The translations under genes and the position numbers were made by a program. The notes below the pieces were generated by a model that did not search any database, was not told the origin of the DNA, and was given only the letters and a program-made list of their open reading frames with translations. A DNA stretch of 64,000 nt from Candidatus Thiothrix putei (GTDB lineage: Bacteria > Pseudomonadota > Gammaproteobacteria > Thiotrichales > Thiotrichaceae): NCBI GenBank assembly GCA_029972225.1, contig CP124756.1, positions 3,578,001-3,642,000 on the forward strand, written 5' to 3'. Shown here piece after piece: positions 9,381-15,696 of the stretch (position 1 is its first letter; each line of letters begins with the position of its first letter).

Positions 9381-9863
9381 TTATCTGGCAAACAATTCGT
9401 ACTGGAAGTTTTGTAAGCCCTGATCAGCACAGTGGACACTCCCCTGCATCACATAAGCAGAAGGCGTTACCACCCCACCTTTAATAACCACACCCTGAAC
9501 TTCCTGACCACAACGGTTGCCTTTAACGGGCGTTCCCACCACCGCCACGACTGACGTGGTTTTATCATGCCGATAGACTTGGGCTTGCGCTGAACCCGGT
9601 GATTTTATGAAATAACAAGGCGCCATCGGCTTGAGCCAAAGCTGGGGTTCTGTTTTTCCTACCTGCAACCGACAGCCCCCCCCTTCATCACGTAACACTA
9701 AAGCTAAACCCGCCACCTGCATTTGATCGGTAACATGTGGCGTGGCAAGACGCTCAGGCAATACCAACGTTTGCGTTGCTGAAGACTGGTCAGATTCACA
9801 AGCCGTTAGCAACAACACTAACAGGGTTATACTCACATAACTTAATGAACCGGCCAAAACCAC
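9381..9863 (-). CDS. Predicted lipoprotein, candidate immunity partner of the adjacent amidase
   Basis: The 160-aa product starts with a signal peptide ending in the lipobox 'LLTAC' (Cys22). The mature part has several further cysteines ('GGGCRLQVG', 'APCYF', 'NRCGQE', 'VHCADQG') that could form disulfides. No family is recognised. Its first 22 bases overlap the end of the Tae4-like amidase gene, so the two are probably translated together. A periplasmic partner translated with a peptidoglycan amidase suggests an immunity protein. That is inference: it does not look like known Tai4 proteins. Confidence 0.6.
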   Translation of the reverse strand: MVLAGSLSYVSITLLVLLLTACESDQSSATQTLVLPERLATPHVTDQMQVAGLALVLRDEGGGCRLQVGKTEPQLWLKPMAPCYFIKSPGSAQAQVYRHDKTTSVVAVVGTPVKGNRCGQEVQGVVIKGGVVTPSAYVMQGSVHCADQGLQNFQYELFAR

Positions 9864-10627
9864 ACCTCCTCCGAACGCTCGAAGTAATCCAGCGACCCAT
9901 CAGCTAACGCAGGCCCTTCCCAACCCGGATTTTTTTCACGCATCAGAATACCCGTGCCATCCCACAGGTCGATATGATCACCTTGGTTGCCTACCCCCCA
10001 AAAATTGTGAAAACACACAAAGCCAGTACGTCCTTTGAAGGCTCCCCACGACACATTGCTGCGAATTTCCACGGTTCCAAAGCGCCCCGGATTGCGGCGC
10101 ATCCACTCGGCTACTTCACGCGCTCGCAAGGTGTGTCCCTTATGCCCCCGATACCAACAGGTTGTTTTGTCATAACCTTGCAGCAAGTTACTACGCAACA
10201 AACACGTTCCCATTAAAATGGCGCACTGATTACCAAAATGTGGATTGCCATCGGCATCACGGCAGGGAAAGGTCTCTCCCGTTTCAACCGTCGGATGATT
10301 ATTCCAAAGGATGCGAAAACCTAAATTTGGTCCTTCCGCTGGCAATGTTTGTACCGGCGTTTCCACATCACTGTCAGCAGGCGGATGCGTATCCCCTAAC
10401 GGCACAAACGCTGGCGGGGGGGGCGGCAATGAAGGTGCATCCCGCAACTCTTCCACAATAGCCGCACGTTCTGGTTCAGTTGTTGGCAGTGCAGGAGCAG
10501 CAACCGGCGCTGGATTAACGGGGGAAACGGCTGCCGGTACTGAATGACTGGCGGGAGCTGCTGGCGTTGAGCGACGCCACCGCAATAACGACAGCAACCA
10601 GTTCCAGAACGAATTTGACTCAGGCAT
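9842..10627 (-). CDS. Tae4-like peptidoglycan amidase with proline-rich N-terminal region
   Basis: The C-terminal half (about 103-261) matches the type VI amidase effector 4 family. It has 'FRILWNNHP' at the start, the nucleophile segment 'GNQCAILM' (Cys135), 'GRTGFVCFHNFW', and 'GDHIDLWDGTG' with His218 and nearby Asp residues. Known Tae4 enzymes cut the D-Glu-mDAP bond of peptidoglycan. Residues 20-100 are a Pro/Ala-rich linker not seen in classic, short Tae4. There is no clear signal peptide, as expected for an exported effector. AAGGAG precedes the ATG. No type VI secretion genes occur in the window, so the delivery route is unknown. Confidence 0.72.
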   Translation of the reverse strand: MPESNSFWNWLLSLLRWRRSTPAAPASHSVPAAVSPVNPAPVAAPALPTTEPERAAIVEELRDAPSLPPPPPAFVPLGDTHPPADSDVETPVQTLPAEGPNLGFRILWNNHPTVETGETFPCRDADGNPHFGNQCAILMGTCLLRSNLLQGYDKTTCWYRGHKGHTLRAREVAEWMRRNPGRFGTVEIRSNVSWGAFKGRTGFVCFHNFWGVGNQGDHIDLWDGTGILMREKNPGWEGPALADGSLDYFERSEEVWFWPVH

Positions 10628-10672: not shown

Positions 10673-10700
10673 CGTATTAGCCCGACTAAAATCCTGTCAA
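10673..10700 (-). promoter_or_regulatory. Candidate promoter of the amidase/lipoprotein pair
   Basis: On the minus strand a perfect TTGACA (10700-10695) lies in the last codons of the HNH gene. A weak -10 (AATACG at 10678-10673, 16-bp spacer; or TAATAC with 15 bp) follows, about 45 bases before the amidase start. Confidence 0.35.
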
Positions 10701-11288
10701 CTGCCTACGTTCCCGTAACTTACTGCTACGTGGAAAATGCGCACTCAAAAACTCCATCTGGTCAGCCAGAATATTGCGCCCTTGCAAGAAAACATATTCT
10801 GCATACGTTGGCTGAAAAGGAATAGCCAACAAGGGCATGTGCGCCTGTTCTGGGGTTCGCCCACCTTTGCGGCTATTACACAGTTTACAAGCGGTAACTA
10901 CATTCGTCCAACGGTCAGGCCCCCCATGTACCAAAGGATGTACATGGTCACGGGATAAGTCTTTTTCTTGAAAATGTTGACCACAATACAAGCAAATGTG
11001 GTTATCACGCCGAAACAACAACGGGTTACTGAGGGGGGGGACATAATCCTGATGCAACTGCTGTTTGCTGCCTAGCGTCGCGATAATGGAATGGAGTTCG
11101 ATGCGGCTACGTTGCCCGGTGATGGCGTTAACCCCCCCGCGAATGGAGAGAATGGGAGTCCCGCAGGTGTAAGCCACTTGCTCAGTGTAATAAAGTTTGA
11201 CTGCCGTTTGGAAATGAATCCATTCCAACGGCATCCCACTGACATCCGTCCGCAGAATTAGCTGGTTCAAGCTGATCATGTGCAGCAT
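10686..11288 (-). CDS. HNH endonuclease family protein
   Basis: The 200-aa protein carries an HNH module at about residues 93-145. A zinc-binding 'CLYCG' (Cys99, Cys102) is followed by 'LSRDHVHPLVHGG' with the catalytic Asp-His pair, 'WTNVVTACKLCNSRKGGR' with the HNH Asn, and the second Cys pair (134, 137). The N-terminal 90 residues form a beta-rich domain. Such stand-alone HNH proteins are common in proteobacterial chromosomes and their substrate is generally unknown; no methyltransferase or other restriction partner is nearby. An internal ATG three codons in (11279) is an equally good start. Confidence 0.8.
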   Translation of the reverse strand: MLHMISLNQLILRTDVSGMPLEWIHFQTAVKLYYTEQVAYTCGTPILSIRGGVNAITGQRSRIELHSIIATLGSKQQLHQDYVPPLSNPLLFRRDNHICLYCGQHFQEKDLSRDHVHPLVHGGPDRWTNVVTACKLCNSRKGGRTPEQAHMPLLAIPFQPTYAEYVFLQGRNILADQMEFLSAHFPRSSKLRERRQLTGF

Positions 11289-11394
11289 GATTGCAGATTC
11301 CTGACATAAATCAAGTATTCATCATATTTTTCATGAAGTTGTCATCACCTGCTGAAATCATTGAGCCATGTCAAGTTTCAACAGCCGCACTTCA

Positions 11395-11408
11395 GGCACA
11401 CTGCACGC
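11395..11408 (+). promoter_or_regulatory. Weak sigma-54-like -24/-12 site before the 31-aa protein genes
   Basis: GG and GC dinucleotides are separated by exactly ten bases, and GGCAC is present at the -24 side. Other consensus positions (TTGC) are poorly kept. The site lies about 37 bases before the ATG. It may be chance. Confidence 0.2.
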
Positions 11409-11444
11409 ATTGATTACTTTGAAGATACCCGAAAGGAGACCAGC

Positions 11445-11540
11445 ATGTTTAGTTTTGATTATGGCCTGCCCGCAGCGATTGTGATTGCACTGATCCTGTT
11501 CGCATGGTTCAGCTTCTTTTCGGTGGTTTTCTCTGGCTAG
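11445..11540 (+). CDS. 31-residue single-helix membrane protein, copy 1
   Basis: ATG at 11445 is preceded by AAAGGAGA with a six-base spacer, an excellent ribosome site, and the frame runs 31 codons to TAG. The product begins 'MFSFDYGLPAAIVIALI' and ends 'FAWFSFFSVVFSG'. It is almost wholly hydrophobic, so it should be one membrane helix with short ends. It is a clear paralogue of the next small gene: both are exactly 31 residues, both begin MFS-aromatic-D-aromatic-G, and both share 'FAWFSF'. No known family is recognised. A small hairpin (11563-11584) follows. Function is unknown. Confidence 0.75.
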   Translation: MFSFDYGLPAAIVIALILFAWFSFFSVVFSG

Positions 11541-11562
11541 ATTCTCTTAGCTTACAGTAACA

Positions 11563-11584
11563 CTTCCTGATCTTGTCAGGGAGA
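11563..11584 (+). other. Hairpin between the two 31-aa protein genes
   Basis: Eight-base arms CTTCCTGA and TCAGGGAG (one G-T pair) enclose a five-base loop. There is no T-run, so it may be an mRNA processing or stability element, or a weak attenuator, between the tandem copies. Confidence 0.4.
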
Positions 11585-11635
11585 TGCTATTCCTTTATCC
11601 TCTTATACACATAAGTATTTTAGAGGTATGTGGAT

Positions 11636-11731
11636 ATGTTTAGCTGGGATTTTGGCATTCCGATGCTGATTGTTGTTGGTCTGATTGCTTTCGCGTGGTT
11701 TAGCTTCTTGTCAGTTGCTCTTCTTGGTTAA
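11636..11731 (+). CDS. 31-residue single-helix membrane protein, copy 2
   Basis: ATG at 11636 follows GAGG with a nine-base spacer, and the frame runs 31 codons to TAA. The product begins 'MFSWDFGIPMLIVVGLI' and ends 'FAWFSFLSVALLG'. About half the residues match copy 1 at identical length, and most changes are conservative (Y/F, L/I, V/L), which is the pattern of protein-level selection. A single membrane helix is predicted. A strong bidirectional terminator follows the stop by 13 bases and closes the two-gene unit. Function is unknown. Confidence 0.75.
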   Translation: MFSWDFGIPMLIVVGLIAFAWFSFLSVALLG

Positions 11732-11744
11732 GCATCATGCAAAT

Positions 11745-11772
11745 AAAAAAGGCCGCTCACGCGGCCTTTTTT
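11745..11772. terminator. Bidirectional Rho-independent terminator between the small genes and rpoH
   Basis: A perfect 12-bp stem, AAAAAAGGCCGC with GCGGCCTTTTTT, encloses the loop TCAC. The A/T ends give a U-tract in both directions, so it can stop transcripts from the 31-aa genes (+) and from rpoH (-). It overlaps the rpoH stop codon by two bases. Confidence 0.85.
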
Positions 11773-12640
11773 ATGCGGCTTCCACTACAGCCAAGCGCAG
11801 TTTACTTACCGCTGCATTTTCGAGTTGGCGAATCCGCTCTGCAGACACATTGTATTTTTCTGCCAAGTCATGCAACGTTGCTTTTTCTTCAGCCAACCAA
11901 CGACTCGCCAGAATATCACGGCTACGGGCATCTAAATTAGCCAGCGCCGTTTGGAAACGCCCACGAGTATAAGTGTCCCATTCTTCCGCTTCCAACATTT
12001 CTGCCGGATCAGCAGACTCTGCCACTAAATATTGGCTAGGTGAGAAATTGGTGGTGTCATCCTCGTCTTGGTCGATACTGAGATCAAATGATATGTCATG
12101 CGCACTCATGCGTTTTTCCATTTCTAGCACTTCAGCCGTACTGACGCCTAAATCATCAGCCATCGACTGCGCTTCTTCCTGATTTAGCCACCCCAAACGC
12201 TTTTTGCCACTGCGTAAGTTGAAGAATAATTTACGTTGCGCCTTCGTCGTTGCTACTTTGACAATTTTCCAGTTACGCAGGATGAACTCGTGAATTTCCG
12301 CCCGAATCCAGTGAACCGCGAAAGAAATCAAACGCACATTCATATCAGGATCAAAGCGTTTTACCGCTTTCATCAACCCTACATTACCCTCTTGAATTAA
12401 ATCACCTAAGGGCAAACCATAACCACTATAGCCACGCGCCACCTTCACCACAAAGCGTAAATTGTGGAGAATCAACTGACGGGCTGCTTCTAAATCTTCT
12501 GCATATTTCAGGCGTTCTGCTAAACCACGCTCTTCTTCTGTTTCCAACACAGGAATGGCATGGATCGCATGAATGTAACTCTCCAAATTTCCAACAGGAA
12601 CGGGGAGGGTCTGTCCTCTAAGCATCATTGCGTAAGTCAT
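11771..12640 (-). CDS. rpoH: Heat-shock RNA polymerase sigma factor RpoH (sigma-32)
   Basis: This sigma-70-family group 3 factor directs RNA polymerase to heat-shock promoters. Region 2 has 'NLRFVVKVARGYSGYGLPLGDLIQEGNVGLMKAVKRFDP' and 'WIRAEIHEFILRNWKIVK'. The RpoH box, target of chaperone and protease control, is seen as 'QRKLFFNLRS'. The C-terminus has the region 4 HTH 'ATLHDLAEKYNVSAERIRQLE'. The ATG at 12640 (289 aa) has GAGGAG seven bases upstream and is preferred over an upstream start at 12670. A perfect CIRCE element lies 32 bases upstream. Confidence 0.95.
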   Translation of the reverse strand: MTYAMMLRGQTLPVPVGNLESYIHAIHAIPVLETEEERGLAERLKYAEDLEAARQLILHNLRFVVKVARGYSGYGLPLGDLIQEGNVGLMKAVKRFDPDMNVRLISFAVHWIRAEIHEFILRNWKIVKVATTKAQRKLFFNLRSGKKRLGWLNQEEAQSMADDLGVSTAEVLEMEKRMSAHDISFDLSIDQDEDDTTNFSPSQYLVAESADPAEMLEAEEWDTYTRGRFQTALANLDARSRDILASRWLAEEKATLHDLAEKYNVSAERIRQLENAAVSKLRLAVVEAA

Positions 12641-12671
12641 GCGTGATCTCCTCATTAATTCTGGCATCATT

Positions 12672-12698: not shown

Positions 12699-13666
12699 TA
12701 ACCTGTTTGGTTGCGGTTTTAGTCTGGTTCATGCCACGTTATTTTTAACCCATTATGCTTTATGATAGCGCATAAACAGATAAGCAGAATATTATAACAA
12801 TGAATCGTGAAGAACAGACTCTTATCGAGAAAATTGAAGGCAATCGCTTTTTAACCGCTAGCGACCGGCAAACCCTGATAGACCGATGGCGTGATGCTTG
12901 CGAGCGTTTACAACAAAGCGAAGCCAAACTACAAAGCCTTCATGATGCACTGCATAGCAAAGAGCAGCTCATTGACGCTATTGAGCAGTCATTACGGGAA
13001 CGCGACCAACACATGGAGCGGAAAGAGCAATTACTCACCGACAAAGAGCAACTGTTACTGAGCAATCAACAAAACGTCTTAGAACGCGAGCAGCAAATAG
13101 CGCAACGTGACGCTGTTATTCAACAAAAAGAAGCTGTTATTCACGAACGTGACCAAATCATCCGTGAGTTAGGAACTCGCTCACGTGAAATCGAACAACT
13201 CGCCAGTCAAAAAGAAAAGTACATTCTAGAACGCGAAGATCAGATCCACATTCGTAACCGCCGCCTGGAAGAGAAAGACAATCATATCGGCAAGCGTGAC
13301 CGTGAAATCGACAATCGCGACAAACAAATCAGCAAACGCGATACCAACATTCAAGAACTCAGCCAGCAACTTGAAGAGCTTAACCGCTGGATACGTGACC
13401 ATCAACAACGCATTTACGCCCAAGAACAACTGTTAAGCGAACGCAACCGTCAATTATCCGAACGTGATCGCCATCTCAAAGAACGTGATCAACACATCCA
13501 ACAGCGTGATTATCGCCTACGTGATTTCGATCGCTTATTGCAACGCCGCGATGATTTGATCTTCGAAAAAGATCAACAAATTCACCAACGTGACAGCCTC
13601 GTGCGGCGCAAAGTCGACCAGATCAGTTTACGCAATGAACAACTCGCGGAGCAAACCCGCCTACTA

Positions 13667-14802
13667 TACCTTACAGCGTCAAGACCTGAACATTTTTAAA
13701 GGTTTGAAAATTTGTTGTCATCAACTGGGTCAGTTCTTTCTTGTGATCGGTATCCAGCTTGTCGAGACAGTTGGTGATGGCCTCCTTGAAAGCGGGAAAC
13801 TTATCATAGTATTTCGAGTACAAGCATTTTTTCTTGACGAACTTCCACAACCGTTCAATCAGATTGAGGTTGGGTGAATAGGTCGGTAAAAATAATAGTT
13901 CAATATTGAGCCTTTTCGCACAGGCAAACACGGCTTCACAGCGTTGATACTTGGCATTATCCAAGACCAAAGTGATCGGTATTTTGAGTGCTAACGCTGC
14001 AATTTTTTCCAATAATTCACACACGCTGTTAGCGTTGATATAGGAGTCGTTAGTGATCGTGATGAGTTGTAGCGTTATCGCATTGAGTGCGCCCAATACG
14101 TTGTAGCGTTGTCGACCACAGGGGGCTTTGATGAATACGCGGGAAAATGACCACAAAAACCCCAGAAACGGTGCTAACACGAAGTGGGCGGCATCGACAA
14201 AAAAAGGGCGCGTTTGCCCTCCTTAGCCTCCTGAATGCGCGGTTTTAGTTCATTTTCCAGGAACTTTTCTTGTGCTTCCACATCAGCTTTGGCGGGTATC
14301 ATCCCCACTTTATGGATGTCCATCCCTATTTTCTTCATAAAGACACGTACCCTGTCCTCACTGCGTTTGATGCCTGTCAGCTCCTCAATCTTAGCGGCTG
14401 CCGCCTTGCTGGTTGCGGGGGGATATTCACGAAAATAGGCTTCAATCTTGTCTTTATATGCCATCAAATCACTCTGTGGTTTATTGAATCGTATTTCTTT
14501 AAGAGCTTCTAAACCGTTAGGTTGTAGGTAGGCGTTTAGGTAGGCAAGCAGCGTGGCTTCTGTAATCCTTTCCAATCGTTTGATTTCCTTATGCGTCAAC
14601 TGTTGGGATTTCAGGTACAGCACGGACATTTTCTTACGGACTCTGGGATGAGGATGGCGCTCCTTCCAGTAGAACAGCTCCGCTATCTCATCCTCAGTGA
14701 AAGTGATTTTTAATGTCATACATTACTCATGGCTGCTTTTGTTACCAGTCATCTAACCATATTTCCCTGATCAAAAAAACTATTTTATGGCACGGACTGG
14801 TA
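13667..14802 (-). mobile_element. IS630-family insertion sequence (1136 bp) with TA target duplication
   Basis: The element is bounded by TACC at the left and GGTA at the right, flanked by TA at 13665-13666 and 14803-14804, the IS630 target duplication. These limits come from exact restoration of the host reading frame. Terminal repeats beyond the four outer bases are poor by eye. Inside, two overlapping minus-strand frames encode one DDE transposase by frameshift. The length is normal for the family. An internal TACCAGTC near 14740 is inverted with respect to the right end. Confidence 0.82.
13671..14719 (-). CDS. IS630-family DDE transposase, produced by -1 frameshift
   Basis: The first frame (14719-14174, 181 aa) holds the helix-turn-helix N-terminal domain ('LTHKEIKRLERITEATLLAYLN' and 'ATSKAAAAKIEELTGI'). 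The second (to 13671) holds the catalytic core. The frames join at a run of seven T on the minus strand (14205-14199), reading CTT TTT TTG in the first frame. A -1 slip gives '...ALFFVDAAHFV', bringing the first catalytic Asp into the protein. 'LVLDNAKYQRC' and 'LPTYSPNLNLIERLWKFVKK' supply the second Asp and the Glu. The fused product would be about 349 aa, the normal size. All catalytic residues are intact, so the element may be active. Confidence 0.82.
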
Positions 14803-15696
14803 TACACGAAAAAGAACGCATTGCCCAAGAGCGTGAACAACTGCTGCTCCAACAAGGCAATCAAGTGCTTGAAAAAGACCAACACCTTGCTCTGCGTGAT
14901 CAAACAATAGGTGAACGAGAACACCATCTGCAACGGCGCGATGAACAAATCGCGGCACAATTTTTACAACTTCAAGAACGTGACAAAGAAATCCAGCAAC
15001 GTGATCAGTCGATCCAAACACTGCAAGCGCACCTCAGTACGTTAGAACAACGCTTACTAGAACAGCAACAGCACATCGACACCCACCACCAACGTGTTGC
15101 AGAACTGGAGGCTGCCTTACTGAACAAGGAAAAACACCTTGCTGAATACGCTAATCTTGTTCAACACAAAGACACCTTACTGATAGAAAAAGACCAGTTC
15201 ATCCAACGCTTAGAACACCAGCAACAAGACATTACCCAACAAATTGGCGAACGCGACAAAACCCTACAAGCCAAAGATCAGCATGTCTTAGAACAACACA
15301 CCTTACTGCATGAACGCGAACAACGCCTACGCGAGCGTGAAGCCGAACTACAACAACGCGAAGCGCAACATGCCAACCGTGAAAACTTACTGCTGCAACA
15401 TATCGCCGCATTGAGTGAACTCACTGAAAAACAACACACCCAAGAGAATAGCCTACTAGACCAGATCGACACACTGACGGTAATGGCGACCCAATACCAA
15501 GCATACAACAGGGATAATCATGCGTGGGAACTTAAACTGGAACAACGCGATAAAGTGATAAATCTAAAAGACACCATCATTGCTCAGCTCAATCAGCAAC
15601 TACTGCACAAGGAAAAAGCGTTACAACAGCGGGATGCATTGCTGCAAAAACTGGGGCAACAGTTGCGCATATATAGCGCAACTGCCTAAACAAAAT

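Follow-up and report, generated by a model that had tools for sequence, protein, structure and literature searches.

Two short frames converging on rpoH

Within the window, the 64,000-nucleotide stretch of Candidatus Thiothrix putei DNA that was analysed, two frames of 31 codons stand in tandem beside rpoH, and the locus raises the question of whether such short frames are genes and, if so, what their products serve. Copy 1 occupies 11445-11540 of the forward strand, stop included (frame 11445-11537 followed by TAG), and copy 2 occupies 11636-11731 of the same strand (frame 11636-11728 followed by TAA). Both begin with ATG and would encode single-helix proteins of 31 residues, MFSFDYGLPAAIVIALILFAWFSFFSVVFSG and MFSWDFGIPMLIVVGLIAFAWFSFLSVALLG respectively, with a computed mass of about 3.45 kDa. 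The two proteins are 60% identical over 30 residues, and a search of the 4.28 Mb window genome found no third copy.

Each frame is preceded by a motif resembling a ribosome site: AAAGGAGA at 11432-11439 (+), as read from the sequence, and AGAGG at 11622-11626 (+), which is invariant in 15 aligned sequences of the genus. A strong symmetrical terminator hairpin spans 11738-11774, between copy 2 and the convergent rpoH; the portion at 11745-11772 with its T run folds at -23.5 kcal/mol (z -5.7; shuffled mean -10), and is absent from the list of a simple terminator scan. The rpoH gene itself (11771-12670, reverse strand; NCBIfam TIGR02392, 399 bits) is a convergent neighbour of conserved position that lies outside the peptide unit. 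The sequence-only reading of this locus, which described two 31-codon genes, each with a good ribosome site, and a strong terminator after them, was borne out in these respects.

Conservation and selection among relatives

At E ≤10, the frame was matched in 39 of 57 relatives' genomes, the window genome counted. Within the same taxonomic family it is carried by 35 of 36 genomes, the exception being G035, which exceeds chance; the earlier reading had named a lack of such conservation as grounds for refutation. Outside the family, two genomes of the relatives' set match (G044 and G054), while matches in G049, within an MgtE-like transporter, and in G055, within a long frame, were set aside as chance. 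Several open frames of about 450-490 residues among the relatives' matches were likewise taken to be MgtE-like transporters with a chance one-helix match (five were read, and labelled by eye).

Two copies are present in 15 of the 16 genomes of the genus, again including the window genome, and the remaining one, G008, has a single copy. Copy 1 is broken near its 3' end in G004, and in G015 the two copies are far apart, with copy 1 away from rpoH. NG86 counts over 91 pairs of 14 genus sequences put the pN/pS of copy 1 at 0.089, with a median omega of 0.042 in the 73 unsaturated pairs; for copy 2 the values are 0.136 over 105 pairs of 15 genus sequences and 0.071 in the 70 pairs that are unsaturated. 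Both copies are under strong purifying selection, and the proposal that these are real paralogous genes with selection acting on the protein therefore stands on a count of synonymous and nonsynonymous change.

The 16 proteins compared for copy 1, which include one from a neighbouring genus and the broken one from G004, share a mean identity of 0.86, and the 15 for copy 2 one of 0.83; across the copies the mean falls to 0.58, with ranges that overlap (lowest within a copy 0.58, highest between copies 0.71). Since identity is higher within than between copies, the duplication probably predates the genus.

A family of predicted single-helix peptides

Two profiles of the peptide, A1 with 30 sequences and A2 with 77, were searched against a sample of 369 genomes of the class, taken as Gammaproteobacteria from the named relatives, and matched 55 and 57 genomes, respectively. 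In a phylum sample that included members of the class, 3 of 369 genomes matched, all from the class and one of them the window genome. Lengths of 27-39 residues prevail among the members, whose consensus is M-F-x-F-x-x-x-x-P-M-x-I-V-x-x-L-I-x-x-A-W-x-S-F-x-S-V-V-F-x-G, in which P9, W21, F24 and V27 are kept in at least 90% of members.

AlphaFold2 predicts one long helix across residues 8-30 (mean pLDDT 90.7), and charged residues account for only 6 of 2059 core positions in 103 sequences. The charges collect at the N termini, which hold 25 K/R and 80 D/E, as against 2 and 1 at the C termini. The peptide is thus predicted to be a single membrane helix, as the sequence-only reading had supposed for each protein.

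That reading had also known of no family for the pair, and searches of Pfam, NCBIfam, PHROGs, PADLOC and the PDB returned weak matches at best. The nearest Pfam candidate, DUF3149 (PF11346), resembles copy 1 over 18 N-terminal residues and was rejected, scoring 14.2 bits against a cut-off of 23.2 (E 0.033) in one of the 30 A1 members. A scan of these 30 members against NCBIfam at E ≤1 listed YoaK and PRK09835.1 only, the single PHROGs match was that of copy 2 to phrog_6936 (E 0.03), and a profile search of the PDB gave caveolin alone at E 1.7 in a first search and nothing in a later one. Plasmids and phages yielded no match to the peptide, nor was it described in the titles and abstract openings of the literature matches listed.

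A strict pattern scan of named genomes located 39 loci, including those of Thiothrix, Cocleimonas, Leucothrix, Thiogranum, Thioalkalivibrio, Halothiobacillus, Sulfurimicrobium and Sulfuriferula, and the names of many carriers mark them as sulfur bacteria. One record, titled Aquificaceae bacterium, holds a Cocleimonas-like peptide (L200:6956-7048), and is possibly a misbinned contig.

Gene neighbourhood outside and inside the family

In other families the peptide gene has a recurrent setting, in which it stands just after ccoS at the end of the order ccoNO(Q)P-ccoGHIS. Of 53 genomes beyond the window's family, 50 have a same-strand ccoS within 12 kb upstream of the peptide, and the distance from its stop to the start of the peptide is at most 300 nt in 47 and at most 100 nt in 37 of the 53; ccoI was found in 42. 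A convergent rpoH lies within 2.5 kb at 31 of these 53 loci. Both neighbours are present at 28 loci and none lacks both, leaving 22 loci that keep ccoS with no rpoH within 2.5 kb.

These counts exclude L149, L151, L152 and L153 (weak second or partial matches), L154, in which no peptide was found, and L060(+), L061, L062 and L069:439, which were dropped as chance; nor do they take in L071 to L073, which are second loci of G015 and G001. The labels ccoO, ccoP, ccoG, ccoS and copper P-type ATPase come from NCBIfam on one reference locus, L167, and ccoN from TIGR00780, whereas ccoH, ccoQ and ftsX/E/Y were assigned by eye.

The arrangement in the window's own family is different. Within the genus, rpoH is kept at 16 of 16 counted loci (in G015 by way of copy 2), and no cco gene was seen at any of the 16, the flanks covering at most 1.5 kb for 14 of them. 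In all 12 genomes of the family that were examined, ccoS is far from the peptides or on another contig. In the window genome, the peptides are at 3.59 Mb, whereas ccoNOQP of the second cbb3 set is found at about 1.53 Mb and ccoG and ccoS near 1.20 Mb. Among other loci of the same family, 16 of 26 have neither rpoH nor cco genes nearby, some of them near contig ends. The conserved link to oxidase genes that characterizes accessory proteins of terminal oxidases is found outside the family and is absent within it. Because the cco genes lie elsewhere in the window's family while the order ccoS-peptide><rpoH is found outside it, the rpoH neighbour is best read as a remnant of that older order, which accounts for the position of rpoH with no stress role.

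Co-occurrence with one type of CcoN

The cbb3 oxidases, whose catalytic subunit is CcoN, allow bacteria to respire at very low oxygen. With the second CcoN of the window genome as query, 194 of the 369 class genomes match at E ≤1e-100, and a type line could be placed between identities of at least 68% (740 bits or more) and at most 66% (696 bits or less), a narrow gap whose 68% boundary was drawn after the same data had been seen. In 54 class genomes a CcoN reaches 68% identity to the query or more, and the peptide is present in every one of them. In the other 315 genomes there are three weak matches, about three being expected at E 0.01: G236 (6e-4, in a 191-residue frame), G055 (0.0084) and G397 (0.01), the latter two partial. 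All three were taken as chance, although 6e-4 is better than the usual chance level. Such co-occurrence is what accessory proteins of a terminal oxidase would display.

Profile A1, to which just 5 of the 54 genomes had contributed, still found 53 of them (missing G061), together with the outsiders G378 and G397, so the result is independent of members that were added later. The 140 genomes with only other ccoN genes gave two weak matches (G236 and G397) and nothing convincing, and the peptide therefore follows the type of the catalytic subunit. Fisher's test gives p 1e-61, a value that ignores kinship and linkage and is inflated by both, since a linked operon and peptide may be lost in a single deletion.

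In seven families (f10, f44, f89, f121, f131, f141 and f151) some genomes have this CcoN type and others do not, and the peptide tracks it in every listed member. The same holds for G078 and G325, which belong to one genus and differ in CcoN type. In the window genome, G123, G175, G303 and G396 the peptide and this CcoN are unlinked, being far apart or on other contigs, and these genomes nonetheless retain the two. In a tree built from 31 CcoN sequences, with one partial row (L142) omitted, a 100/100 branch divides 21 of this type from the remaining 10. The window genome's other CcoN is closest to that of P. stutzeri (3mk7/5djq, 819 bits), from which the second CcoN is further removed at 650 bits.

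Within the relatives' set, the family member without the peptide, G035 (89% complete), also has no ccoN, whereas G031 (83% complete) has peptides and no ccoN was found in it, which makes it either a counter-case or an assembly gap. The number of peptide copies does not match the number of cbb3 types, as a single ccoN accompanies two peptides in G001, G005, G009 and G011. As a separate observation, an other-type ccoN and ccoG appear in several frames at G003:C1:2040554-2045273, and a second, whole ccoN and both peptides are kept in that genome.

Comparison with known small oxidase proteins

Small subunits of cbb3 oxidases are, to our knowledge, well known for a few model species only. Among them, the protein most like the peptide in kind is CcoM (PDB 5djq chain N), which also has one helix and a similar size and is tied to a cbb3 oxidase; it is described in PMC10433244 as a 36-residue subunit of the P. 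stutzeri cbb3 oxidase. However, CcoM and the peptide have no sequence similarity (hhalign probability 0.1 for A2, 77 rows, against the single CcoM sequence), and in the oxidase to which CcoM belongs, 3mk7/5djq, the CcoN most resembles the window genome's other CcoN and not the peptide-associated type. Given this probability and the empty PDB profile search, membership in the CcoM family was rejected.

In Campylobacter jejuni, CcoX (Cj1486, DUF4006) and CcoY (Cj1485, 33 residues) are reported in PMC8267372 as small one-helix proteins needed for normal oxidase activity, with CcoY required for full Cco activity. They share with the peptide their size, their single helix and a place among cco genes, but they sit between ccoP and ccoH; DUF4006 was not among the families listed for the 30 A1 members. 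Together with CcoM, they set a precedent for cbb3 oxidases being served by proteins of a single helix. CcoS (TIGR00847), a small membrane protein of the ccoGHIS group, is the usual upstream neighbour outside the family; it is encoded by a separate gene alongside the peptide, and identity with it was rejected because no TIGR00847 match was listed for any of the 30 A1 members. As far as these searches show, the peptide would represent a new family of a known functional kind.

Promoter-like elements of the two copies

An FNR/ANR-like box, TTGAGCCATGTCAA, lies at 11361-11374 (+), 84 nt before the start of copy 1. None of the 15 genus sequences upstream of copy 1 lacks the box, which reads TTGAGCCA in 14 and TTGAGTCA in one, although much of the flanking sequence diverges. 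Its genus form is TTGAG[CT]CA[TG][AG]TCAA, placed 79-85 nt before the copy 1 start; the box thus begins with TTGAG where the FNR consensus, TTGAT-N4-ATCAA, has TTGAT. Since the window contains five instances of the bare TTGA-N6-TCAA, it is the conservation of the box that counts. A -10-like hexamer, CACACT, lies at 11397-11402 (+) within a block, GGCA.ACT, that is conserved in the genus alignment, and its first base is 29.5 nt from the box centre as counted by hand, a spacing seen in class II promoters of FNR and other activators. By sequence, copy 1 has a conserved FNR-like box at class II spacing throughout the genus.

Similar box patterns were found in 4 of 10 ccoN upstream regions of 250 nt, namely those of the window genome's two ccoN genes and of one each in G001 and G017; the other six had none, nor did two stretches around ccoG and ccoS of G000 and G001. 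The HNH endonuclease gene at 10686-11288 (reverse strand) is divergent from the peptide pair and often adjoins it in the genus. The box at 11361 lies between this gene and the pair, and could serve either side.

Copy 2 has a candidate promoter of its own, a sigma-70-like TTGTCA-17-TATCCT at 11573-11601 (+), which is one of four such sites found by a consensus scan of 521 bases in which 0.7 were expected. In this region, CTTGTCAG and TTTAT are identical in 15 of 15 aligned genus sequences. Each copy therefore has its own conserved promoter-like footprint, and the pair need not be one transcript, which corrects the picture of a self-contained unit in the sequence-only reading.

Proposed role and alternatives

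Because the peptide family accompanies one branch of cbb3 oxidases, it is probably an overlooked small part of the enzyme. With moderate confidence, we propose that the two copies are accessory subunits, of one helix each, dedicated to one clade of cbb3-type cytochrome c oxidases, in keeping with the general idea that small single-helix proteins serve membrane complexes. The helix would pack against the core made of CcoN, CcoO and CcoP, with the conserved face around W21, S23, F24, S26 and V27, after P9, as the probable contact, and as a lipid-facing accessory helix it may stabilise or tune the oxidase in the way of CcoM in Pseudomonas. In Thiothrix-like bacteria, the cco genes would have moved away and left the peptide gene beside rpoH, where it could then have been duplicated, the copies coming under different promoters: copy 1 putatively under an FNR-like, low-oxygen box, and copy 2 under a sigma-70-like promoter. 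If this is true, the known small subunits would gain a protein that is missing from the searched family libraries and that occurs in all 54 sampled genomes with one CcoN type.

Mitochondria switch isoforms of COX4, and a bacterial counterpart of this exchange would be two isoforms swapped in the same cbb3 core as oxygen changes, one expressed from an FNR-type low-oxygen promoter and the other from a housekeeping promoter. This extension of the proposal is doubtful, and we hold it to be quite unlikely.

Alternatively, the peptide may be an assembly factor confined to this type of cbb3 oxidase, comparable to CcoS or to the early role of CcoH, which is needed to build the oxidase or load it with copper and is absent from the finished enzyme. 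Its place directly after the assembly genes ccoGHIS is equally consistent with such a function, as is its persistence beside ccoS at loci with no other cco gene upstream (L117, L131, L134, L135 and L216, with about 6 kb or more covered). Against this, the missing peptide in genomes with only other CcoN types (140 genomes, two weak matches) fits a subunit better, although it would also fit an assembly factor confined to one type. Since genomes with only other CcoN lack a convincing peptide, the peptide more likely contacts a structural subunit particular to the type than takes a general part in assembly, and we consider the assembly factor a tentative, somewhat unlikely alternative to an accessory subunit.

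The distribution of extra paralogs bears on a broader possibility, namely that the family provides general helpers of several respiratory complexes (cbb3, aa3, bd and bc1), with a specialised paralog for each. G034 and G028 each have an extra paralog beside genes for haem A/O synthesis and SCO, accompanied in G034 by cydAB; at the loci L057 and L060 the extra paralog stands between ctaB/SCO/ctaA and a DUF2189-like membrane gene, cydAB being next in L057. A tandem peptide pair is found directly after rplM-rpsI at L042 and L053 (G031 and G025, of genus g6), all of these labels having been assigned by eye, and some other paralogs of the same family lie near unrelated genes. However, no convincing peptide was found in the 315 genomes without the CcoN type, 140 of which have another ccoN, and a general helper is accordingly improbable.

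Finally, the regulator or stress protein linked to rpoH that the sequence-only reading had suggested draws on the convergent rpoH at every counted genus locus and at 31 outside-family loci, but is highly improbable given that 22 of the 53 outside-family loci keep ccoS with no rpoH within 2.5 kb, that presence follows the cbb3 type, that copy 1 of G015 is away from rpoH, and that convergent genes share a terminator and not a promoter.

Other features of the window

Two further features were noted near the peptide pair. A gene for a coiled-coil repeat protein at 12800-15689 seems to be split (12800-13699 and 14787-15689, forward strand) by a transposase pair at 13671-14719 (reverse strand), in which DDE_3 scores above its cut-off and the HTH domains below theirs; in relatives (L034, L040 and L072) the coiled-coil gene is one frame of 596-769 amino acids. 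A Tae4-like amidase effector gene lies at 9842-10627 (reverse strand; Pfam 4.7e-13), and its small downstream neighbour at 9381-9863 (reverse strand) could encode an immunity protein; the gene pair is also found in several relatives.
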